32,607 nucleotides of DNA from positions 1 to 32,607 of IMG/VR virus record IMGVR_UViG_3300013131_000143; one strand, written 5' to 3'. Each line of letters opens with the position of its first letter. Within the stretch, counting starts at the first letter, position 1. Positions 11,143-32,607 of the stretch are shown piece after piece. The notes beneath the pieces are model-generated. The model was not told where the DNA came from, made no database searches, and worked only from the letters and a program-made list of their open reading frames with translations. Made by a program: the position numbers and the translations under genes. Source of the DNA: a virus.

Positions 11143-11454
11143 CTAAGTAATAATACCACCGGCACTAGCAGGTTGTATGCCTGTTGTTGTTTGGATGTAA
11201 TGATTCCTAACTGCTTCCACTGTTTTACTACTCATCATTACATGTGCCTTGCCAAGGGTTACATTATTATTTAACTCACTTGTAAATAGACTCTGTATCA
11301 ACCCCAATCCTTGGGCACTAGGCATCACTGTGCATGGTTTGCTAACGGTATAACCATTATCAGTTTCTTCAACAATTTTGGCAACAATCTCATCACCATT
11401 GACCATTTTAAAACTTACGATTTCATCTCTTTCATAATTTAGATTTTTAAGCAT
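11143..11454 (-). CDS. Small protein, possibly Sm-like fold
   Basis: 103 aa from the ATG at 11452-11454, chosen because GAGGA lies 5 bases upstream; an upstream start adds four residues. VSFKMVNGDEIVAKIVEETD followed by GYTVSKPCTVMPS resembles the strand pattern of Sm/LSm domains (a bent beta strand with .NGDEI..KI). The tail, GKAHVMMSSKTVEAVRNHYI, would be helical. It overlaps the inactive glutaredoxin gene by 8 bp. If truly Sm-like it could bind RNA or form a ring; that is inference. Confidence 0.7.
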   Translation of the reverse strand: MLKNLNYERDEIVSFKMVNGDEIVAKIVEETDNGYTVSKPCTVMPSAQGLGLIQSLFTSELNNNVTLGKAHVMMSSKTVEAVRNHYIQTTTGIQPASAGGIIT

Positions 11455-11719
11455 TGAGTTCCTCAATTCGTTGATTAATTTCTTCTACTGTTAAATTTGT
11501 AATATCTTTAAATCCGTTGTCCCAAACTACTTGATTGTTAACATAGAACTGTGGGCACGGATAATGTCTAAGATCTCGACCTTGTGATTCTAAAAATGTA
11601 ACAGCTTCGGGGGTAGTTTCGACGTTAATTTCGTCAAAATCAATGCCTAGATCTATTAGAAATTTTCTTGCAACTGCATTTCTAACTGCTCGATCGGTGT
11701 ATAATTTTAATTTTGCCAT
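11447..11719 (-). CDS. Glutaredoxin-fold protein without the active-site cysteines
   Basis: 90 aa. KLKLYTDRAVRNAVARKFLI replaces the usual Y....CP.C, then LGIDFDEINVETTPEAVTFL, and HYPCPQFYVNNQVVWDNGFK matches the cis-Pro strand (TAPQ/TVPQ region) and the following GG/NGF turn of glutaredoxins. The only cysteine (about residue 55) sits next to the cis-Pro. AGGAG is well placed for the start. It immediately follows the active glutaredoxin and probably arose from it; it could act in binding or regulation instead of redox chemistry. Confidence 0.75.
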   Translation of the reverse strand: MAKLKLYTDRAVRNAVARKFLIDLGIDFDEINVETTPEAVTFLESQGRDLRHYPCPQFYVNNQVVWDNGFKDITNLTVEEINQRIEELNA

Positions 11720-11720
11720 G

Positions 11721-11969
11721 TTAGGCTCCTAGTTTTTCCTGTAACTCTTCATCAGTTAACTTAGCCAGTCCTTGATAACCGCCTTCCACAAATAATGATT
11801 CGCCTAGATACAGTTGTGGTGCAGTTCTGTGGCCCCGACCAATTAACCATTCTCTAGCTTCAGAATCTGTATCTATATTTACTATCTCAAACGGGATATT
11901 TTTTGTTGTTAGTAAATGTTTTGCTTTGTCACAAAACGGGCAATTATTTTTTGAATATACAGTTAGCAT
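11721..11969 (-). CDS. Glutaredoxin, reductant for ribonucleotide reductase
   Basis: 82 aa. MLTVYSKNNCPFCDKAKHLL carries the dithiol CPFC site (C10, C13); RTAPQLYLGESLFVEGGYQG holds the cis-Pro and the GG glutathione-binding turn. Length is typical of bacterial and T4-type glutaredoxins. It lies directly downstream of nrdB and nrdA, and is expected to reduce the NrdA C-terminal cysteines after each turnover. Glutaredoxins can also hold Fe-S clusters, which may matter given the Fe-S genes elsewhere in the window. Confidence 0.9.
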   Translation of the reverse strand: MLTVYSKNNCPFCDKAKHLLTTKNIPFEIVNIDTDSEAREWLIGRGHRTAPQLYLGESLFVEGGYQGLAKLTDEELQEKLGA

Positions 11970-11981
11970 AAATTATCCTTA

Positions 11982-13082
11982 TTATAGTGTTGGTAATAGA
12001 TCGTAATCGATAGCATCACTCATTACGCCAATTACGTAGTTAGTTGATTCGTTTTCTTGTAGAGCTGTTTGTTTTTTGCTGGTATCACTGTGCTTGTTAA
12101 ACCAAGGAATAGGTGTTGTTTTGGGTGCTGGATTCCAGTACTTGATACCTACTTCTTTTAGTGCGCTAACTGCTGTATAGTCAACAAAGTCCTTTAAGAT
12201 GTTAGCATTAAGGCCAATAACTGGGCCTAGTTTAAATAAGTAGTCGGCCCAGGCTTTTTCTTCACGAATAACATCTTCGTACATACGAATAACTTCAGCC
12301 TCACATTCAGCTTTGACTTCAGCAAAGCGTGGATCTTCCTTAACCACTTGATTGATCAAAAAAGCAGTCCAATCTTTGTGTAGAACTTCATCTTGTAGGA
12401 TTAGGCTAATGATATTTCCATTACCAATAAAGATCTTGTTTTCTACCATTGCTAGGCTTGTAGCAAATGATACCATAAAACGGAATGCTTCAAGTCCGTA
12501 GCTCGCATGTAATGCTAACCAAATAGCTTTGATATGATCTTTTTCGTCTACTTTTTGGCCAAGCTCTTTCTTACAGTTAATAACATGTAGCCGGTCGTAG
12601 TAGTTGCCAATAGTTGACGCCATACTAACAATCTCTTCTGTGTCATGGATTGTGTTGAACACTTCTTTGGGCACATTATAGATGTTACGGATAATATGGC
12701 TATAACTGCGTGAGTGGATGTTAGTTTCAAAGAACGTCCACCCGTACACTAAAGCCTCTAGTTCAGGTAAACTCACTACAGGAGTAAACACCTGGCTAGG
12801 GCCTCTACCCTGTAAGCTGTCCAGGGCAGTTTGGCGTAGTAGGTTACTGGTAAAAATGTGACGTACGGTGTCACTAGAATCTTTGAAATCCTGTGCGTCT
12901 TTTGTTAATGATATTTCTTCTGGTACCCAAAAGAAACCCCGGGCTGTTTGTTCAAACTTAGCAATCTTGTTATACTTAACTTCTTCAAATCGTTGTATTG
13001 TTACCGGACCTGCTGGGTCTAAAAACATCTTACGATTAAGATAGTCTGTGGCTTGCGTTAAATTGTATTGTGCTTTTGACAT
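11982..13082 (-). CDS. nrdB: Class Ia ribonucleotide reductase, small (beta) subunit
   Basis: 366 aa from the ATG at 13080-13082, chosen because AGGA lies 6-7 bases upstream, next to the nrdA stop; a longer frame upstream is basic and unlike the family. NrdB carries the diiron-tyrosyl radical. Seen: WVPEEISLTKDAQDF (first Asp ligand), FFETNIHSRSYSHIIRNIYN (Glu, His and radical Tyr), LEAFRFMVSFA and LQDEVLHKDWTAF (Glu and His ligands). Compared with E. coli and T4 (ETIHSRSY), one extra residue lies between the Glu and His (ETNIHSRSY). Length fits the family (E. coli ~376). Forms the holoenzyme with NrdA. Confidence 0.93.
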   Translation of the reverse strand: MSKAQYNLTQATDYLNRKMFLDPAGPVTIQRFEEVKYNKIAKFEQTARGFFWVPEEISLTKDAQDFKDSSDTVRHIFTSNLLRQTALDSLQGRGPSQVFTPVVSLPELEALVYGWTFFETNIHSRSYSHIIRNIYNVPKEVFNTIHDTEEIVSMASTIGNYYDRLHVINCKKELGQKVDEKDHIKAIWLALHASYGLEAFRFMVSFATSLAMVENKIFIGNGNIISLILQDEVLHKDWTAFLINQVVKEDPRFAEVKAECEAEVIRMYEDVIREEKAWADYLFKLGPVIGLNANILKDFVDYTAVSALKEVGIKYWNPAPKTTPIPWFNKHSDTSKKQTALQENESTNYVIGVMSDAIDYDLLPTL

Positions 13083-13089
13083 ATTTTTC

Positions 13090-15411
13090 CTAGAGCTTGC
13101 AGCTCTCACATTCTTCTTCAATATATTCTTCGACGGGTTGTGTCTGTGGTGCCGCTTCTTGTTCCATCTTGGCACCTTGTTTGTTAATCAAACTATAGTA
13201 GAATGTTTTAATCCCCCACATGTGTGCCTGCATTAGGTTCTTAGCAATTAGCGTAGTTGGTACTTTACGATCTGACCAGTGTGCCGGATTGTAGAATGTA
13301 TTAGTACTAATACTTTGATCTACATATGCCGCCAACACTGCGGCTGTTTTTAAGTAACCATCACAGTCTTTTTGTTCCCACATCAATTGGTAACGATTTT
13401 TCAACTTGTTGTATTCCGGTACAACTTGAATAAACGATCCCGCTTTTGATTCTTTAACTGTAATTAAACTCATAGGCATTTCAATACCGTTAGTCGAATT
13501 AATTACAACGCTTGAACTTTCAACTGGTGCTACTGCCATCAAGGTAGCATTACGAACACCATAACTACGCATATCACTACGTAGTTGTTCCCAGTCTAGT
13601 TCACGTGTTGGTGTAAAGTCTGCTAGTTCATTAACAGCTTTAGCACGATGCTCCCACGGGAAGTGTCCTTGACCGTAGCGTGTATGCTCACTATGCAGAC
13701 ATGCGCCACGTTCTTTGGCTAGTTCTACAGTTGCTTCTGTTAAGTAGAATGCCTGATGTTCCATCCATGTTTTAACTTCTTGTAGTGCGTCTGCTTCACC
13801 GTAGCGTAAGTTCTTTTTAGCATGCCAGTAAGCTAAGTTTGTAATGCCGATACCTAATGGTTGAATCTCGTCGTTACTTAATTTACTTTGAACGCTTAAG
13901 AAGTCTTGATAATCTAAGATGTTACATAAGCTACGTTGTAGGATACGGCAAGCACGGCGCATGTCTTCTGGATTACGGAACGCACCCCAATTAATTGATC
14001 CAAGGGTACATAATGCAATACGCCCATCAGCATCGTCAAGGCGCTTAAAAGGCCGAGTAGGAAGTAGAATTTCACAGCAAAGGTTACTCTGATAAATTGT
14101 ATGATACTCGGGGTCAAATGGACCCTGGTTCATAACGTTGTCGATAAACACCAAATAGATACGACCTGTATCTGTACGTTCTTTTAAGATGCCACCTTTA
14201 AATACTTCTTCTGCGCTCATAACTTTCTTACGTAAGCCAGCTTTCTTCTCATACTTAACATACAGTTCTTCAAACTTTTCTGTGTTTGAGTAAAATGCTT
14301 CGTACAAGTCAGGTACTTCATTTGGGTCAAAGAATGTAATGTTTTCTTTGTTCTTAAATCTGCGCCAGAACAACGCACTCAATACTACTCCATAGTCCAT
14401 ATGACGTACACGTGTTTCTTCCGTACCTTGATTATTTTTCAATACAATTAAGTCATCAAACTGGTGATGCCAAATTGGGTAAAACACAGTAGCCGACGCA
14501 TTGCGGATGCCGCCCTGACTACAGCTACGTAGGTCACCAAACCATTTCTTCAAAAAGGGAATCATGCCAGTGTGCATGATTTCACCGCCTCGTATAGGGC
14601 TTCCCAATGGACGTAAGCGTCCAATCTCCAACCCAATGCCGGCACGTTTGCTAGCATACTTGGCCATCATTTCTCCCGAAGCAAAGATACTATCAAGATC
14701 ATCGTCACTACGAATGAGTACACAGCTACTAAATTGTTTAGTGGGTGTTCCGAGACCAGCAAGCACAGGTGTAGCAAGAGTAAAAAGACCATCACTAGCT
14801 GCATTGTAATAATCTCTAATATATTTTAAACGTTGTGCAGGCAACTCGTTGTGGAATACTGTTGCAGCCGCTACAATATAACGTATTTGTGGTGTTTCGT
14901 AAATCTGTTTAGTAGCACGATTGCGCACTAGGTATTTTTCAATCAATTGTTCGATCGCTGCGTAGCTATATTCTTCGTCTTTGGCATGGTCAAGCATATC
15001 ATTCATGCGATTCCATTCCTCTTCAGTATACCATTCAAGCAATTCGGGGGTATAAAGACCTACATCTACATTTTTCTTAACAATTTCTAATAGATGCGGA
15101 ACTTGGTAATCACCGTAAACATCTTTACGTAGCATACTCAGTCGTTGTTTACCTGCTACATACTGATAGTTTACATGTCCAACATCTGGTTCATGCTCAA
15201 TGTCGATTAGATCTACAATAGCACGAAGTGTTAGTTCGTCAATTTCTCTTGTGCTAATACCATCGTAAAAGTGAGGTTGTGCCTTAATCTCAATCATACT
15301 CTGACTCACGTCAGCAATACCAGCACACACTTTACTAATTTGGGCTTGCCATTTACTGACGTCTAATGGGACGATGGCTCCGCTGCGTTTTTTGACTTGA
15401 ATATTGCTCAC
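13090..15411 (-). CDS. nrdA: Class Ia ribonucleotide reductase, large (alpha) subunit
   Basis: 773 aa, GTG start with GAGG upstream. It reduces ribonucleoside diphosphates to dNDPs. The N-terminal ~95 residues (IQVKKRSGAIVPLDVSKWQA) form an ATP-cone allosteric domain. Active-site signatures: KQFSSCVLIRSDDDLDSI (first redox Cys), QSNLCCEILLPT (Asn, thiyl-radical Cys and Glu), IALCTLGSINWG (second redox Cys), IKTFYYSLINKQGA (radical-transfer Tyr pair). The C-terminus EEECESCKL has the CxxC pair re-reduced by glutaredoxin. All expected residues are present and the length is normal. It starts the nrdA-nrdB-glutaredoxin operon. Confidence 0.96.
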   Translation of the reverse strand: MSNIQVKKRSGAIVPLDVSKWQAQISKVCAGIADVSQSMIEIKAQPHFYDGISTREIDELTLRAIVDLIDIEHEPDVGHVNYQYVAGKQRLSMLRKDVYGDYQVPHLLEIVKKNVDVGLYTPELLEWYTEEEWNRMNDMLDHAKDEEYSYAAIEQLIEKYLVRNRATKQIYETPQIRYIVAAATVFHNELPAQRLKYIRDYYNAASDGLFTLATPVLAGLGTPTKQFSSCVLIRSDDDLDSIFASGEMMAKYASKRAGIGLEIGRLRPLGSPIRGGEIMHTGMIPFLKKWFGDLRSCSQGGIRNASATVFYPIWHHQFDDLIVLKNNQGTEETRVRHMDYGVVLSALFWRRFKNKENITFFDPNEVPDLYEAFYSNTEKFEELYVKYEKKAGLRKKVMSAEEVFKGGILKERTDTGRIYLVFIDNVMNQGPFDPEYHTIYQSNLCCEILLPTRPFKRLDDADGRIALCTLGSINWGAFRNPEDMRRACRILQRSLCNILDYQDFLSVQSKLSNDEIQPLGIGITNLAYWHAKKNLRYGEADALQEVKTWMEHQAFYLTEATVELAKERGACLHSEHTRYGQGHFPWEHRAKAVNELADFTPTRELDWEQLRSDMRSYGVRNATLMAVAPVESSSVVINSTNGIEMPMSLITVKESKAGSFIQVVPEYNKLKNRYQLMWEQKDCDGYLKTAAVLAAYVDQSISTNTFYNPAHWSDRKVPTTLIAKNLMQAHMWGIKTFYYSLINKQGAKMEQEAAPQTQPVEEYIEEECESCKL

Positions 15412-18192: not shown

Positions 18193-18513
18193 CTAGACTG
18201 TAAAGGATTCTCCGCAGCCACATTTACCAGATTCGTTGGGATTAATAAATTCAAAGCCTTCGTTTAGTCCCTTCTTTTGCCAATCTATTTGCAGACCTTG
18301 CAAGTACACCAAATCCTTTCCGCTTACAAATATACTAACACCCCAACTTTTAAATTCGTCATCCCACGAATTGCGCTCATCAACAAATTCTAACACGTAG
18401 CTCATGCCACTACAACCAGCAGTTTTGACGCCAATCTTAATGCCTATGCCCTTGCCTCTGGCTTTCAGACTAGCGCGAACTTTTTCTGCAGCTATTTCAG
18501 TTAAGGTAATCAT
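18193..18513 (-). CDS. iscA: A-type Fe-S carrier, IscA-like
   Basis: 106 aa. Receives and delivers Fe-S clusters or iron. It keeps the three ligand cysteines: [19 protein letters not shown] (~C34) and [12 protein letters not shown] (CGC at the C-terminus). The stretch SYVLEFVDE and [13 protein letters not shown] closely match bacterial IscA. It is the third gene of an iscU-erpA-iscA cluster and its ATG overlaps the erpA stop (ATGA). Length is normal for the family. The high similarity to a host-type protein suggests acquisition from a proteobacterium. Confidence 0.92.
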
Positions 18514-18839
18514 ACACCAAAACTACTACCACATCCACAGGTAGTTTGTGCATTAGGATTTTTAATTGAAAATTGGCTACCACTTAGGCTTTCTGTGTAG
18601 TCAATTTCGGCACCATTTAAGTACTGACCGCTCATACTGTCTATCAGTAGATGTACTCCGTCGAACTCTAAGTCAAAATCATCTTCATTTACATCTTCAT
18701 CAAACGTAAATCCGTACTGAAAACCACTGCATCCGCCACCTTGTACAAACATACGCAGTTTTAAGTTTGGATTGTTTTCTTCTGCTAATAATTCTTTAAC
18801 TTTATTAACAGCATTATCATTCATTTTAACTAGTTCCAT
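18510..18839 (-). CDS. erpA: A-type Fe-S carrier, ErpA-like
   Basis: 109 aa from the ATG at 18837-18839, chosen because AGGA is 7 bases upstream; starts at 18857 or 18824 are possible. Transfers Fe-S clusters to target proteins. [20 protein letters not shown] and the C-terminal [11 protein letters not shown] carry the three cysteines. [16 protein letters not shown] and [14 protein letters not shown] are near-identical to ErpA as I know it. It overlaps the iscU gene slightly upstream and iscA downstream, so the three are co-translated. Confidence 0.92.
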
Positions 18840-19209
18840 GTTTTTTCCTATAATCATCTATAGCACTTTTAATAGCATCTTCTGCTAAAACCGAACAGTG
18901 GATCTTAACTGGGGGTAAGGCAAGTTCTTCGGCAATCTCGCTATTCTTAATCTCTTGAGCTTGGTCAAGCGTTCGACCTTTAAGCCACTCAGTGACCAAA
19001 CTAGAACTAGCTATTGCACTTCCACAACCGTAGGTCTTAAATTTTGCGTCCGTAATAATACCGTTTTCTACCTTTATTTGTAGTTTCATTACATCACCGC
19101 AAGCTGGCGCACCAACCATACCTGTGCCAACTTGCGGATCTTCCTTATCCATACTCCCAACATTTCTAGGATTTTCATAATGATCTAGGACCATTTTTGA
19201 ATAGGCCAT
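18826..19209 (-). CDS. iscU: Fe-S cluster assembly scaffold IscU
   Basis: 127 aa. Scaffold on which [2Fe-2S] clusters are built from sulfur given by the desulfurase IscS. All functional residues are present: [15 protein letters not shown] (C37, D39), [18 protein letters not shown] (C62), the HscA-recognition LPPVK (98-102) and IHCSVL (H104, C105). Full length and highly similar to proteobacterial IscU throughout. No iscS, hscA/B or fdx gene is in this window, so host partners would be needed. A perfect late promoter (TATAAATA, 19244-19251) lies upstream. Confidence 0.96.
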
Positions 19210-24227: not shown

Positions 24228-25634
24228 TTATTCTGCTTTTTTAAGCCCGGCTAACATGCTTTTAAGTTTAGTACTATTAACTTCTGCATTAATTTTAGGA
24301 GCGTCTGTAATTTCGCCAGTTTCTTTATTTACAGTACTACCAGTTTTGATACTACTTAGGATATTTGCCGCAGGGTTGCGCATGCCACCATTGGCATCAT
24401 CACTAGCGCCGCTGTCTGTGATACGCATTGTGTCAATATCGTAGTCCAAATCGATCTTTTGTCCTACCCCGGTTGAACTACGTGATTTCATACACTGAAT
24501 TTGATAGCGGCCGCGCTCACGCATAGCACGTGACGTAAAGATACCAAACACGTTGTCTGCTGTGTTAATCTTACTCAATCCGCCTGCGATGTGACTATGA
24601 TCAAATTCAATTTCTTCCACAGCACCACGATTAAGTTGCGATGCGGTCACAAATAGTACACCAAGTTCTTTTGCTAAGTTACGTAGCTCTTCTGATACAT
24701 ATTTGTCTTTGACAAATAGGTCATTTGGGCTAACTTTAGCACTAACAGGCATAACTAAATCAAGATAGTCGATCATAACAAAGTCTACCCGACGTCCTGT
24801 TTGAATTTGATATTCTTTTAAGTATGCTCTAATGTCGTTGACATTACTTTGCGCTGGCATACCTTTAATTTGATAAGTGCCAGCTTTCTTACTTACAAGA
24901 CGCACTTTCATTGTAGTAGTGTCCATGTCCTTACGGATATCCTTAGTGCCCATACCTGTAAGCATAGCATCAGTTCTTAATGCGCAAAGCTCTTCACTCA
25001 GCTCTAAACTTACATAAACACCATTTAACCCTTGTTGTAACCAACTTAAGGCAATGTTCATCATGACCAATGATTTGCCTGAGCCCGATCCACCAGCAAA
25101 GATGTTTAGTTCGCCGCGACTAAATCCGCCATACAATAACTTATCAAGTTGTGGCCACCCGGTACTTACCTGTCCGCCACTATTATAGTATTTTTCAAGA
25201 CGTGCCTTAGGGTCTAGGAAATAATCTGTGCCCATATCTTTAGTAAGACTAATCTGCACAGCATCTTTGATTAATTTTTCTACAGGATTAAAGTCGCCTT
25301 TTTCTAACATGTCTGCGGCTTTAAGAATAGCACGTTCAAGTTCTTGCTTCTTAGTAAAGCCTTCAAACTCGGTCATAAACCATTCATAATGGCTTTCGTT
25401 TAAGTCTGGCACGTGTTTAAGTTCTACGCCTGTAACTGCTTTGACTTGATCAACAGTTGGCATAGTGCGATGTTGATCTGTGTGTTCTTTGATAAAACGT
25501 GCAACTTCACGTAAACTTCTGTCAAAGTTTTCTGGATTATAAATGTTTTGGACGCGAACATATGATTGTGCATCCTGCATCATCATTTCAATAAAAAGTT
25601 TTTGTAAATCTGGCGAATAGTCTTTTGTGCTCAT
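24228..25634 (-). CDS. 41: Replicative DNA helicase, DnaB family (T4 gp41-like)
   Basis: 468 aa, close to T4 gp41 (475). Unwinds the lagging-strand template 5'->3' as a hexamer and works with the primase next door. The N-terminal ~150 residues are the helical domain; the RecA-like domain has Walker A GGSGSGKS (181-188), Walker B VDFVMIDYLDLVMP, and the sensor stretch FVTASQLNRGAVEE. FGIFTSRAMRERGRYQIQCM KSRSS fits the arginine-finger region. It lies 4 bp after the primase stop and is probably co-transcribed. The acidic tail may bind partners. Confidence 0.93.
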   Translation of the reverse strand: MSTKDYSPDLQKLFIEMMMQDAQSYVRVQNIYNPENFDRSLREVARFIKEHTDQHRTMPTVDQVKAVTGVELKHVPDLNESHYEWFMTEFEGFTKKQELERAILKAADMLEKGDFNPVEKLIKDAVQISLTKDMGTDYFLDPKARLEKYYNSGGQVSTGWPQLDKLLYGGFSRGELNIFAGGSGSGKSLVMMNIALSWLQQGLNGVYVSLELSEELCALRTDAMLTGMGTKDIRKDMDTTTMKVRLVSKKAGTYQIKGMPAQSNVNDIRAYLKEYQIQTGRRVDFVMIDYLDLVMPVSAKVSPNDLFVKDKYVSEELRNLAKELGVLFVTASQLNRGAVEEIEFDHSHIAGGLSKINTADNVFGIFTSRAMRERGRYQIQCMKSRSSTGVGQKIDLDYDIDTMRITDSGASDDANGGMRNPAANILSSIKTGSTVNKETGEITDAPKINAEVNSTKLKSMLAGLKKAE

Positions 25635-25638
25635 AATA

Positions 25639-26673
25639 TTAATTATACATTTTCTTTTTCATAAGTTCAATTTTTAATCTACTCGTTTCTCTTGCGTCCA
25701 AAATAGACTTGAGTACAAAGAGCTTGCCATATTTAACCACAGCCTCATTAATATCTTTACATGTCTCAAAAAAGACAGGAAAACTCACTGACCAACCGTA
25801 CTCAATAGCCCTGTTTACTAGTTGTGCACCTGCTCGGTCGGCATCTGGCACAACAATAACTTCTCTGCCTAAACTATCAATGATATCTGCTTGTGTTTCT
25901 GAACAGTCATTGCTCATAACACTTACCCCATCTACACTCATAGCATCAAATGGGCCTTCACAAACAATTACAAACTTAGCATCTGGCAATTGATTGTTTA
26001 AGTTGAATACTAAGTTGGGCTCGTAATTGCTGTAATACTTTGGCTTAACTCCGTCAACAAACGCACGACTTGTATAGCCAACGATCTTACCTTCCCAATA
26101 CATGGGAATAATCACACGTTGATGCAGGCTGTGATCAGTACTGTCTGTCCAGTAAAAATCATACTTAGCAGGATCAATTTTACGATTGTTAACGTAATCA
26201 ACAGCTAAATTTAGCAGGGGTGGCACATCTTGAAAGTTGTTTAAGATATGGAATGATAAGAACTGTTGAAAACTAATAGCATCAGCAGGTAGTTCACGAA
26301 CTTTAAACTCAATTTTCTCTTCTTGTTCAGCTTTAAGCTCCTCTGGAGCTACAAGTTCACGGATGCGAATTGCTTCAATCACTAGCCGTTTTACATCGTT
26401 CTCGTTGGCGCCCAACCAGCGTAAGAGTTTACGGAATTTAAATGTCAAATGCCTGCCGGGTTGATAACTGGCTTTGAAATTACAGTTGAAACACGAATAG
26501 GAGATTTTTCCATCAGCATCTACATGGACACCCCCTCTGCTTCTTGTGTCAGCAGACTCTCCGTTGTGTACGCAGCACGGCGCATTTCCTGACTGCCAAC
26601 CCGAGGGGCTAGACTTAACTTTTCTTCCAGTCTTCCAAAGGTTTACAGTAAAATCTGATACAGTTTTAATCAA
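25639..26673 (-). CDS. 61: DNA primase (T4 gp61-like)
   Basis: 344 aa with a TTG start at 26673 overlapping the stop of the homing-endonuclease gene. Makes RNA primers for lagging-strand synthesis. An N-terminal zinc-binding site CCVHNGESADTRSRGG (C33/C34, H36) plus SCFNCNFK (C61, C64), then the TOPRIM domain with FVIVCEGPFDAMSVDG and VIVVPDADRAGAQ (DxD). Length matches T4 gp61 (~342). Overlaps no helicase sequence (4-bp gap). The weak TTG start may be a consequence of the inserted endonuclease. Confidence 0.9.
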   Translation of the reverse strand: MIKTVSDFTVNLWKTGRKVKSSPSGWQSGNAPCCVHNGESADTRSRGGVHVDADGKISYSCFNCNFKASYQPGRHLTFKFRKLLRWLGANENDVKRLVIEAIRIRELVAPEELKAEQEEKIEFKVRELPADAISFQQFLSFHILNNFQDVPPLLNLAVDYVNNRKIDPAKYDFYWTDSTDHSLHQRVIIPMYWEGKIVGYTSRAFVDGVKPKYYSNYEPNLVFNLNNQLPDAKFVIVCEGPFDAMSVDGVSVMSNDCSETQADIIDSLGREVIVVPDADRAGAQLVNRAIEYGWSVSFPVFFETCKDINEAVVKYGKLFVLKSILDARETSRLKIELMKKKMYN

Positions 26674-27409
26674 TTATTTTAACCATCCATCCATCTTTAC
26701 TAGGTTTATTATATCTTATTGTATTATATAATTTAGTATAGGGCAAGTTATTATCTTTACACCATCCCCTAAAACATTTCACTTGCTCTTTATGACCATC
26801 CGGAAACGTTACTTCGTACAATTTAGACTTTTCTAACCAATTCTTTTTTGTAGTTTCGGATATTTTAGTGGTAACTTCTGGGTGTTCTTTGATATAACTT
26901 AACCACGTATCTGCTCGCTTTTTTCTGTCCTCATCAGTGAATCCACGTTGTGCCCACATAGCACGTGTTCGCTCAGCACACATTTTTTTATATGCCTCTA
27001 AATCAAAATCAGGTGAATTTAATTTTTTATCCCAAGCCTTTTTAGTTGACTCGGAGACTTTTTTTCTATGTTCTTTAGTTTTTAGTTTTGATAAATCTCG
27101 ATATTTCATTGCTTCTTTATAATTAGGACTCTTTGATGTATCACCGCCAGTACCTTCTTCATTTACAATATTTGCCCAATTTTCATCTTCTACTACATTC
27201 CATAGATTAGAATAATAGATACCTTTATCTCTAATATCATCTTTATTATTAGATTCAAAAATAACTTCAGTATCAACGTCGCCCCCATATTTTTTAAGAA
27301 TATTAACCCAACGTTTTCCTGATCCCTGGTACCAGTACGGGTCTCTTGATGTTTGTCCTAAATATTTTATTCCTGTTAATTTGTGTGTTTTTACATATAA
27401 ATAATACAT
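26666..27409 (-). CDS. GIY-YIG homing endonuclease
   Basis: 247 aa. MYYLYVKTHKLTGIKYLGQT at the N-terminus is the GIY-YIG pair in the YLYV...KYLG form seen in Seg-type phage endonucleases, followed by YQGSGKRWVNILKKYG (conserved Arg/Lys). Middle repeats with SESTKKAWDK and ISETTKKNWLEK resemble NUMOD3 DNA-binding modules. The C-terminus (VKCFRGWCKDNNLPYTKLYN) looks like a helix-turn-helix. Such genes cut intronless or empty sites and copy themselves. It sits exactly in front of the primase gene and has its own late promoter. Lysine-rich, unlike its neighbours. Confidence 0.88.
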   Translation of the reverse strand: MYYLYVKTHKLTGIKYLGQTSRDPYWYQGSGKRWVNILKKYGGDVDTEVIFESNNKDDIRDKGIYYSNLWNVVEDENWANIVNEEGTGGDTSKSPNYKEAMKYRDLSKLKTKEHRKKVSESTKKAWDKKLNSPDFDLEAYKKMCAERTRAMWAQRGFTDEDRKKRADTWLSYIKEHPEVTTKISETTKKNWLEKSKLYEVTFPDGHKEQVKCFRGWCKDNNLPYTKLYNTIRYNKPSKDGWMVKIID

Positions 27410-28354: not shown

Positions 28355-28729
28355 ATGGAAGATAGTTATAAGAAATTATTAGATCAATATCCGTTTTTAA
28401 GTTACATCACCTACGGCGGAAATGAATACATTGGCGTCGTTCAAAACTCAGATGACATTATAACAACCATCTATGATTATGCTATACTTAAGTCGTTAGA
28501 ACAAAAAACTAGATTTTTAGATCTAGCAGACCAATGGTGGTGGGAAAGCAACAGGCTAGTACCAATTAATGTGTTTTTAAAACAAGATTGGATAGAATTT
28601 AGAATTTGCCTAAAAACATTCAACAGTAAAGATGTTGTAATACAACACGGCCCGCATGTTAGTCTTAAAGAAATTGCCAATAAACGATCTAAGCGTCGGT
28701 CGATAACGCTTGTTCGCAGAGTAGGTTAA
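28355..28729 (+). CDS. Conserved phage hypothetical, lone plus-strand gene
   Basis: 124 aa. MEDSYKKLLDQYPFLSYITY, GGNEYIGVVQNSDDIITTIY, FLDLADQWWWESNRLVPINV, CLKTFNSKDVVIQHGPHVSL, KRSKRRSITLVRRVG. The acidic N-terminal half, Trp-rich WWWESNR core and basic tail recall a family I have seen in T4-like phages, without known function. It is transcribed against all its neighbours, has its own late promoter at 28292, and its 3' end overlaps the end of the minus-strand DnaE-like gene by 41 bp. Nucleic-acid binding by the basic tail is possible. Confidence 0.82.
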   Translation: MEDSYKKLLDQYPFLSYITYGGNEYIGVVQNSDDIITTIYDYAILKSLEQKTRFLDLADQWWWESNRLVPINVFLKQDWIEFRICLKTFNSKDVVIQHGPHVSLKEIANKRSKRRSITLVRRVG

Positions 28730-29279
28730 GATTTACTACCACTAGTTGCGAATATGCTATTGAATGTGACTTTTTAAATGCGTACTCACCTTCAACTTTA
28801 TCCCAAACAGTAGCACTAACCTCCTTCCACGTCTTGCCAATCAAATGGCGTTTTGCTGGTCGAATCACTGCTAAGAACATAGCCAATCTAGGAATGGTAT
28901 CTACAGGTTCGGGCATTTTAAGTAATGTGTCGTAATGATTGTTTACGTGAATTAACTGCTGACATATTGCTGGATCATACAACTTAGTCCAGTCTGGCTC
29001 CTGCATTAACTCTATTAGATGAGATTCACTGCGTACCTGTTTATACAAATTTACATTAAGAAAGTCCAGTTTAACATATCCGCGAGCTTCCGCATCATTG
29101 TAGTCCAGACTGGCATATCCTGTGAATGGATCTATAGGAATATCAGTCGGGTGTACTCCTGTATTGTGTCGAATCAGTTGACCATCACGAATTATGCTAC
29201 TTGGTGTGACCTCTACTAGAGCTAGTACCTGGTCACGATCAGCAAAATCTATGTCAATATCTGAATTAAAGTTTTTCAA
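28689..29279 (-). CDS. Miniature DnaE (DNA polymerase III alpha)-like protein
   Basis: 196 aa, TTG start with AGGT 7 bases upstream. Short motifs appear in the same order as in the polymerase core of bacterial DnaE: SDIDIDFADRDQVLALV (D9, D11, like DFDxDF), RHNTGVHPTDIPID (like RNxGxHAGG), RGYVKLDFLNVN (D72, like VKFDFLGLRT), AMFLAVIRPAK (like ALVALFRPG) and YAFKKSHSIAYSQL (like FNKSHSAAYAL). All three catalytic Asp positions are kept. The PHP, most of the fingers, beta-binding and OB domains are absent. Role unknown: a reduced polymerase, a scaffold or a decoy. Comparison is from memory. Confidence 0.72.
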   Translation of the reverse strand: MKNFNSDIDIDFADRDQVLALVEVTPSSIIRDGQLIRHNTGVHPTDIPIDPFTGYASLDYNDAEARGYVKLDFLNVNLYKQVRSESHLIELMQEPDWTKLYDPAICQQLIHVNNHYDTLLKMPEPVDTIPRLAMFLAVIRPAKRHLIGKTWKEVSATVWDKVEGEYAFKKSHSIAYSQLVVVNLNLLCEQALSTDA

Positions 29280-32056: not shown

Positions 32057-32154
32057 TCTCTTGAACTGCTATTGTGTCCTAATGTTTGTGCGAATGACAA
32101 TAAATTGTCAATTATTGAGATTGGCGGTGCAGGAAGTGCAAGTTCTAAGATCAT
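32020..32154 (-). CDS. Possible 44-aa gene coupled to uvsW
   Basis: ATG at 32152-32154 overlaps the uvsW stop by 4 bp (ATGA). MILELALPAPPISIIDNLLS, FAQTLGHNSSSREWLKNYII, MKLM. The stop-start overlap is typical of coupled genes. It overlaps the start of the next gene by 37 bp in another frame. A T4-like phage often has a small gene after uvsW, but I cannot match this one. Without it, 32057-32150 would be an unexplained 94-bp gap. Confidence 0.45.
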   Translation of the reverse strand: MILELALPAPPISIIDNLLSFAQTLGHNSSSREWLKNYIIMKLM

Positions 32155-32607
32155 CGCCATTCTACTTTCTCTACCTGATATGGATAATTTGCTTCAGTGT
32201 AGAATTTTTTACGTGCTGTTAAATGGCGTTTAGCAAACTTGCAGGTTGATGTGACGTCCCAAATTTGGACGAAATCTTTGTCTTCAGCTTTACGAATGCC
32301 TCGCCCAATTGATTGTATTACCCTAACAAAACTTTTACCAGGTTCAACCAAAACCAAATTAAAAATGCGAGGGATGTTAATCCCAACTGCGGCAACACCG
32401 TACGTGGCGACAATAACTTTGTCCTCGCTTGTTGCTACATCATCGTAATGCTCTTTGCGATCATCTGCTTTAGTTCCCCCAGACACAAACACAGCGTCTT
32501 TGATTTTTTCTACTAATGCCTTACCTGGAGCAATACGATCTACCAGAATTAGAGTATTTCCTGTAACTCTAATACGTTCTACCAGTTCGGCGATATAATC
32601 TAAACGA
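32151..32607 (-). CDS. uvsW: UvsW-type RNA/DNA helicase, C-terminal part
   Basis: At least 151 codons of a gene whose N-terminal half lies beyond the right edge. The visible C-terminal RecA-like domain of a superfamily 2 helicase has LILVDRIAPGKALVEKI (motif IV), SEDKVIVATYGVAAVGINIP (motif V) and QSIGRGIRKAEDKDFVQIWD (motif VI, with the arginine finger). The C-terminus ends VEKVEWR. UvsW in T4 unwinds R-loops and branched DNA and rewinds replication forks. It precedes the small overlapping gene and the oxygenase-like gene. Confidence 0.88.
   Translation of the reverse strand, partial: RLDYIAELVERIRVTGNTLILVDRIAPGKALVEKIKDAVFVSGGTKADDRKEHYDDVATSEDKVIVATYGVAAVGINIPRIFNLVLVEPGKSFVRVIQSIGRGIRKAEDKDFVQIWDVTSTCKFAKRHLTARKKFYTEANYPYQVEKVEWR

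Follow-up and report, generated by a model that had tools for sequence, protein, structure and literature searches.

The window, that is, the whole stretch of 32,607 nucleotides of viral DNA analysed here, contains a minus-strand open reading frame for a protein of 196 amino acids. An earlier note, made from the letters alone, had placed this reading frame at 28689-29279, which proved exact, and had left its strand unnamed. Five segments listed there in the order of the bacterial DnaE core were all recovered in that order: DIDIDF at residues 7-12, HNTGVH at 38-43, KLDFLN at 70-75, VIRPA at 138-142 and FKKSHSIAYS at 168-177. As checks, the note had proposed a profile-profile search, a structure prediction and a survey of the Asp triad in homologues. 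The strand opposite the reading frame, read in the same register, contains many stops. The gene, its motifs and its neighbours are located as follows.

28689-29279, minus strand: C-terminal half (C-half) of a split minimal Pol III alpha (P0001), 196 amino acids plus stop, TTG start, phrog_11778
29244-29261, minus strand: DIDIDF, residues 7-12, with catalytic D7 and D9, equivalent to D401 and D403 of E. coli DnaE
29157-29168, minus strand: HNTG, residues 38-41, equivalent to the E. coli H511 region (KHAGGV); H38 and G41 are invariant
29055-29072, minus strand: KLDFLN, residues 70-75, with K70 and catalytic D72, equivalent to E. coli K553 and D555
28851-28865, minus strand: IRPAK, residues 139-143, equivalent to E. 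coli FRPGP with R639; R140, P141 and K143 are invariant
28752-28778, minus strand: FKKSHSIAY, residues 168-176, O-helix of the fingers; H172 is equivalent to the steric gate H760 of E. coli DnaE
28355-28729, plus strand: small gene of phrog_11637, function unknown, running towards the C-half gene and sharing 41 nt with its 3′ end
26666-27409, minus strand: homing endonuclease-like gene (phrog_314 at E 5.6e-14) that separates the primase from the C-half cluster
25639-26673, minus strand: DnaG-type primase (T4 gp61-like), a conserved downstream neighbour that belongs to the context and not to the enzyme
24228-25634, minus strand: DnaB-like replicative helicase (T4 gp41-like), likewise a conserved downstream neighbour and context

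Downstream of the C-half gene and on the same strand, the window thus carries the homing endonuclease-like gene, the primase and the helicase. The annotated order in phages RaK2, Cassandra and Phosso is C-half, convergent small gene, virion or unknown protein, primase and helicase; in Atu_ph07 a helicase is annotated at the equivalent place and the gene preceding it is nameless. The phrog_314 gene is an extra of the window, as none is annotated at this position in the reference phages. A gene on the opposite strand occupies the place of phrog_11637 in RaK2, Cassandra, Phosso, Atu_ph07, Vibrio phage 2.275.O and the related viral contig L087; it was confirmed as phrog_11637 in L087 and is known by its place in the others. 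Such an opposite-strand gene is unusual, the surrounding clusters otherwise reading one way. The phrog_11637 gene is a conserved neighbour in all relatives inspected rather than a demonstrated part of the enzyme.

Elsewhere on the minus strand of the window, two A-type Fe-S carrier-like proteins (recognised by eye from a C-terminal CGCG) and one NifU-like scaffold (phrog_8429) lie adjacent to each other at 18193-19209 and constitute a small set for Fe-S cluster assembly. At 11447-15411, proteins resembling NrdA and NrdB, a class I ribonucleotide reductase pair, were recognised by eye, as were two glutaredoxin-like proteins that come after them. Near the contig end, a UvsW-like helicase gene is open over its C-terminal part only (32151-32492, 113 aa, GTG start). 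The UvsW-like helicase of L087 has 522 aa, and the copy in the window is cut by the contig end, a stop or a break.

Comparison with PHROGs assigned the C-half protein to phrog_11778 over residues 3-193 of 196 (E 4.5e-62). This family already bears the label 'DNA polymerase', as does phrog_11127, which comprises the N-terminal half (N-half) described below. Families of full-length phage DnaE matched the protein only in the surroundings of the KSH motif (phrog_405, E 2.4e-6). When the single C-half sequence was used as query, no match was obtained in Pfam and no DnaE match in the PDB. A 13-sequence C-half profile run against the PDB with hmmsearch also missed DnaE, and hhalign against the single E. 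coli sequence aligned the RP segment only. The kinship with DnaE became visible only by deeper profile-profile and structure comparison. For the former, a profile of 106 aligned non-redundant C-half relatives was compared with a DnaE profile built from the E. coli protein and 11 phage DnaE cores. The best local score was 68.8 (E 6.6e-9), against 19.1 for the reversed DnaE profile and a maximum of 24.7 for 150 column-shuffled profiles. This best local match spans the His motif, KxDFLG, the RP motif and FxKSHxxAYA, and the DxDxDF strand aligns as a second, collinear piece. D7, D9, H38, K70, D72, R140 and H172 of the C-half are thereby paired with D401, D403, H511, K553, D555, R639 and H760 of E. 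coli DnaE. In that enzyme the catalytic aspartates are D401, D403 and D555, and H760 acts as the steric gate, which discriminates dNTP from rNTP (PMC8485763). All three catalytic Asp positions claimed for the small protein are therefore present.

An AlphaFold2 model of the C-half, calculated from 56 sequences of the window and of viral contigs, reached a mean pLDDT of 94.1 and a pTM of 0.84. Foldseek placed Pol III alpha structures on top, with weak E-values of 5e-3 to 5e-2. Using VIA-align, 190 of the 196 residues were superimposed on residues 458-841 of Taq DnaE (Z 9.4, 3.9 Å) and 184 residues on 398-781 of E. coli DnaE (Z 8.5). The top 13 solved structures were all Pol III alpha or PolC, and the next, unrelated one among those listed had a Z of 3.8. 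From this placement, the chain consists of the palm and shortened fingers, and in the predicted model the three catalytic Asp residues sit in a Pol-beta-like palm.

The C-half thus shares with bacterial DnaE (E. coli; Taq 3e0d/4iqj) the palm fold, the D401/D403/D555 triad, K553, the RP motif and an F-x-K-S-H-x-x-A-Y O-helix with the steric gate H760. In contrast to bacterial DnaE, it has only 17% of the length (196/1160 residues of the E. coli protein, in agreement with the one-sixth estimated earlier) and aligns to palm and fingers only, E. coli ~397-784 with large gaps. Absent are the GS motif (GRGS), the PHP domain, the thumb, the central part of the fingers (E. coli ~643-742, including R709/R710), the OB fold and the clamp-binding tail. 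The earlier note had also suggested a mimic of the host polymerase core, and these absences bear on the idea that such a mimic is a decoy which captures host replication factors. Its resemblance to the host polymerase core would suit a decoy, but the surfaces by which DnaE contacts the beta clamp, tau and epsilon, located in the C-terminal domains and PHP, are among the missing parts. Conservation is found in the catalytic site with no separate conserved surface, and likeness to host DnaE is low, given that the single-sequence PDB search returned no DnaE. We assign this idea next to no probability.

The Pfam family PF07733 (DNA_pol3_alpha) had exactly one match each in Phosso, RaK2, Cassandra and Atu_ph07, and in each case this was a separate ORF of ~170 aa, the N-half, which ends just past the GS motif (...GVGRGSSVASYVLFLIGVHKVNSIKYDLDFNEFL in the consensus). 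Profile-profile comparison of the N-half with DnaE scored 84.9 (shuffled maximum 23.9). Its model had a pLDDT of 90.4, and only Pol III alpha and PolC stood out in the structure comparison, the best alignments to the Pol III alpha palm covering ~92 residues with Z 8.9-10.6 at 2.4-2.8 Å. The match of the N-half model ends at residue 393 of E. coli DnaE (Taq 455) and that of the C-half starts at 396-399 (Taq 458), so that the two halves tile one domain without overlap. This identifies the window protein as the C-terminal half of a split Pol III alpha. At 84 N-half loci the C-terminus lies 33-39 residues past the start of the GS motif, and the same split point was found in every relative. Neither a fused N+C protein nor a longer or intermediate form was present among ~245 C-half and ~84 N-half loci, and no stretch fetched around these loci contained both halves. 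The N-half is absent from the 32.6-kb window, which is a genome fragment. The clamp-loader gene gp44 follows the N-half gene within 1-2 kb in RaK2, in Cassandra and in L178, a relative of the window. Both halves are thus encoded among replisome genes, the C-half near primase and helicase and the N-half near gp44. Residues 1-70 of the N-half (e.g. L178, 2992-3200) are poorly conserved and had no recognised relative or known-fold match in the palm comparison; they are possibly a partner-binding domain.

The joint distribution of the halves was determined by tblastn. With alignments spanning 80% or more of its length, the C-half occurred in 63 phage records, nearly all of them from jumbo phages; the N-half occurred in 67. 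Between the 60 C-half and 60 N-half matches listed, 58 records were common. W12-3, which was listed on the C-half side only, is a 109-kb partial record. A Staphylococcus record in the N-half list was rejected as a split half since it contains a DnaE-sized ORF of 1073 aa. The N-half was found in all four phages first tested, and profile search detected both halves in the two remaining exceptions to the shared listing, Vibrio phage 2.275.O and Stenotrophomonas phage RAS14. Both were also present in 10 of 11 large IMG/VR viral contigs chosen for carrying either one. Among the large relatives, the three closest to the window, with a C-half ~66% identical, carry the two genes ~114-121 kb apart. Contig L221 (348701 bases, G007) gave a strong N-half match with the C-half undetected; it may be incomplete or represent a lineage in which the C-half was lost or replaced. 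Co-occurrence inside one phage clade is partly due to common descent.

These data also bear on the proposal that the C-half alone is a minimal nucleotidyl transferase, independent of the N-half. The Asp triad and the Pol-beta-like palm bring this proposal close to what was found, and the confident in silico fold of the chain by itself (pLDDT 94.1) together with the metal triad would agree with it. The part that did not stand is its self-sufficiency: the chain is half of a split enzyme and lacks the GS motif, which is needed to hold the nucleotide and sits in the separate N-half, and the co-occurrence of the two is near-perfect. Action of the C-half alone is thus highly unlikely.

Thirteen residues never varied in 190 distinct C-half sequences: D7, D9, D11, H38, G41, K70, D72, R140, P141, K143, F168, H172 and Y176. 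The invariance of DxDxD and RP is partly conditioned by the search patterns and the filter, while K70, D72, H38 and H172, and with D72 one member of the invariant Asp triad, are free of this condition. Twelve loci that failed the motif filter had the same active-site residues on inspection. Residue 170, the equivalent of DnaE K758, is variable (K/R/Q/M). Comparison of the window copy with relatives whose synonymous sites are unsaturated gave a dN/dS of ~0.05-0.1. A C-half relative at L273 2977-3555 carries one in-frame stop between VNLY and GIKTE, which is a sequencing error or marks a broken copy.

A degenerate remnant, the first explanation offered in the earlier note, would here mean that a complete DnaE was taken up from a host and is decaying. 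The large domain losses relative to DnaE and the in-frame stop in L273 could be read in this way. The low dN/dS and the invariant active site, found in 190 distinct sequences and hundreds of contigs, are, at the level of sequence, strong evidence against decay, and the split point is constant across relatives, among which no longer or intermediate form was found. A remnant is accordingly a very improbable explanation.

The expectation that T4-related phages use a family B polymerase was borne out, as such an enzyme was found in all seven C-half carriers tested (the window itself being a fragment). Full-length DnaE was not detected with PF07733 in four carriers, where the N-half was the sole match, nor with PF17657 in seven carriers, where the C-halves themselves were the only hits and remained below threshold. 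The presence of a family B replicase in 7/7 relatives, the absence of the thumb and the central fingers, and the fact that the lysine equivalent to K758 is not strictly kept would all be compatible with a complex of the two halves that binds DNA, dNTP or both and is not a polymerase. Such a complex might serve the replisome as a subunit with a regulatory or structural task, or it might transfer nucleotides to some other substrate, as in end modification or primer tagging. Against this stands the invariance of the steric-gate His and the metal triad, which points to dNTP incorporation (PMC8485763 for the His). We consider a non-polymerase complex unlikely, though deserving of some weight.

Taken together, the C-half is probably one of two chains of a catalytically competent minimal family C polymerase. 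In the proposed assembly, the C-half would supply the palm beta-sheet, the metal-binding residues D7, D9 and D72, K70, and the shortened fingers with H172. The N-half (~170 aa), whose gene, in the relatives inspected, neighbours that of the clamp loader and lies 15-200 kb from the C-half, would supply the N-terminal palm helices and the GRGS loop for the phosphates of the incoming nucleotide. The two chains would join non-covalently and thereby rebuild one Pol III active site. Since thumb, PHP, OB fold and clamp-binding tail are missing, processivity should be low, and short, distributive synthesis would be expected. The strongest objection to this two-chain polymerase is that, with most of the fingers and the whole thumb gone, what is left may be too little for a polymerase. 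Beside a family B replicase, short synthesis would likely serve the extension of RNA primers followed by hand-off, or gap filling. In Bacillus, DnaE extends RNA primers and then hands off to PolC (PMC5627055). By analogy with this system, and because the C-half gene lies beside primase and helicase genes, we would favour a role in extending primers that the family B enzyme then takes over.

A split minimal Pol III alpha has been described from sequence in group 2.2 jumbo phages, which also encode a family B polymerase (Iyer et al. 2021, PMC7824862), and the window gene adds one member to this already described enzyme. Both belong to the same family, composed of an NTP-binding N-unit and a Mg- and DNA-binding C-unit encoded far apart, and share the family B polymerase in relatives and the conserved neighbours phrog_11637, primase and DnaB-like helicase. 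Unlike the members described by Iyer et al., the window copy is uncultured and new, and its N-half would lie outside the 32.6-kb fragment. Added here beyond the 2021 description are a controlled independent test, the exact split point, conservation over ~190 sequences, models of both halves and a count of their co-occurrence. Atu_ph07 gp316 has been annotated as 'DNA polymerase III alpha' (PMC6102473), and some other papers and records likewise label one half. The literature searched, outside which lay most subscription journals and all preprints, contained no experimental study of the split Pol III alpha. The 'split DNA polymerase' of phage MIJ3 (PMC6892783) was considered as the same system and rejected, as it is a family B enzyme with an intein.

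Full-length phage DnaE (phrog_405; e.g. in Streptomyces, Bacillus and Pbunavirus phages) resembles the C-half in being a phage-encoded family C protein with a short match at the KSH motif. In contrast to the split enzyme, those inspected are single chains of ~970-1300 aa and, at this length, have room for the domains missing in the C-half. Cyanobacterial DnaE-n/DnaE-c is a further family C polymerase encoded by two genes, in which a split intein joins the halves to a full-length enzyme. The phage halves differ from it in that each is a minimal domain and no intein is present, since they extend at most a few residues beyond the break.

Whereas bacterial family C replicases are large and multi-domain, the phage halves would together constitute the smallest functional family C polymerase (~370 aa, thumbless), dedicated to primer extension or lagging-strand synthesis before the family B polymerase takes over. 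The natural break would then delimit the smallest catalytic unit of Pol III, and the split form may even be ancestral, a proposal made by Iyer et al. (PMC7824862). We put forward this wider view tentatively, as a possibility that is doubtful at present. If true, a two-piece enzyme of ~370 residues defines the minimal Pol III catalytic unit, and two unrelated types of replicase work in one replisome. With residues, split point and partner gene specified, and with both halves present in phages cultured on laboratory E. coli and P. aeruginosa, such as Escherichia phage 121Q (K-12) and Pseudomonas phage Cassandra (PAO1), the prediction of a split polymerase, which has stood since 2021, is now directly testable.
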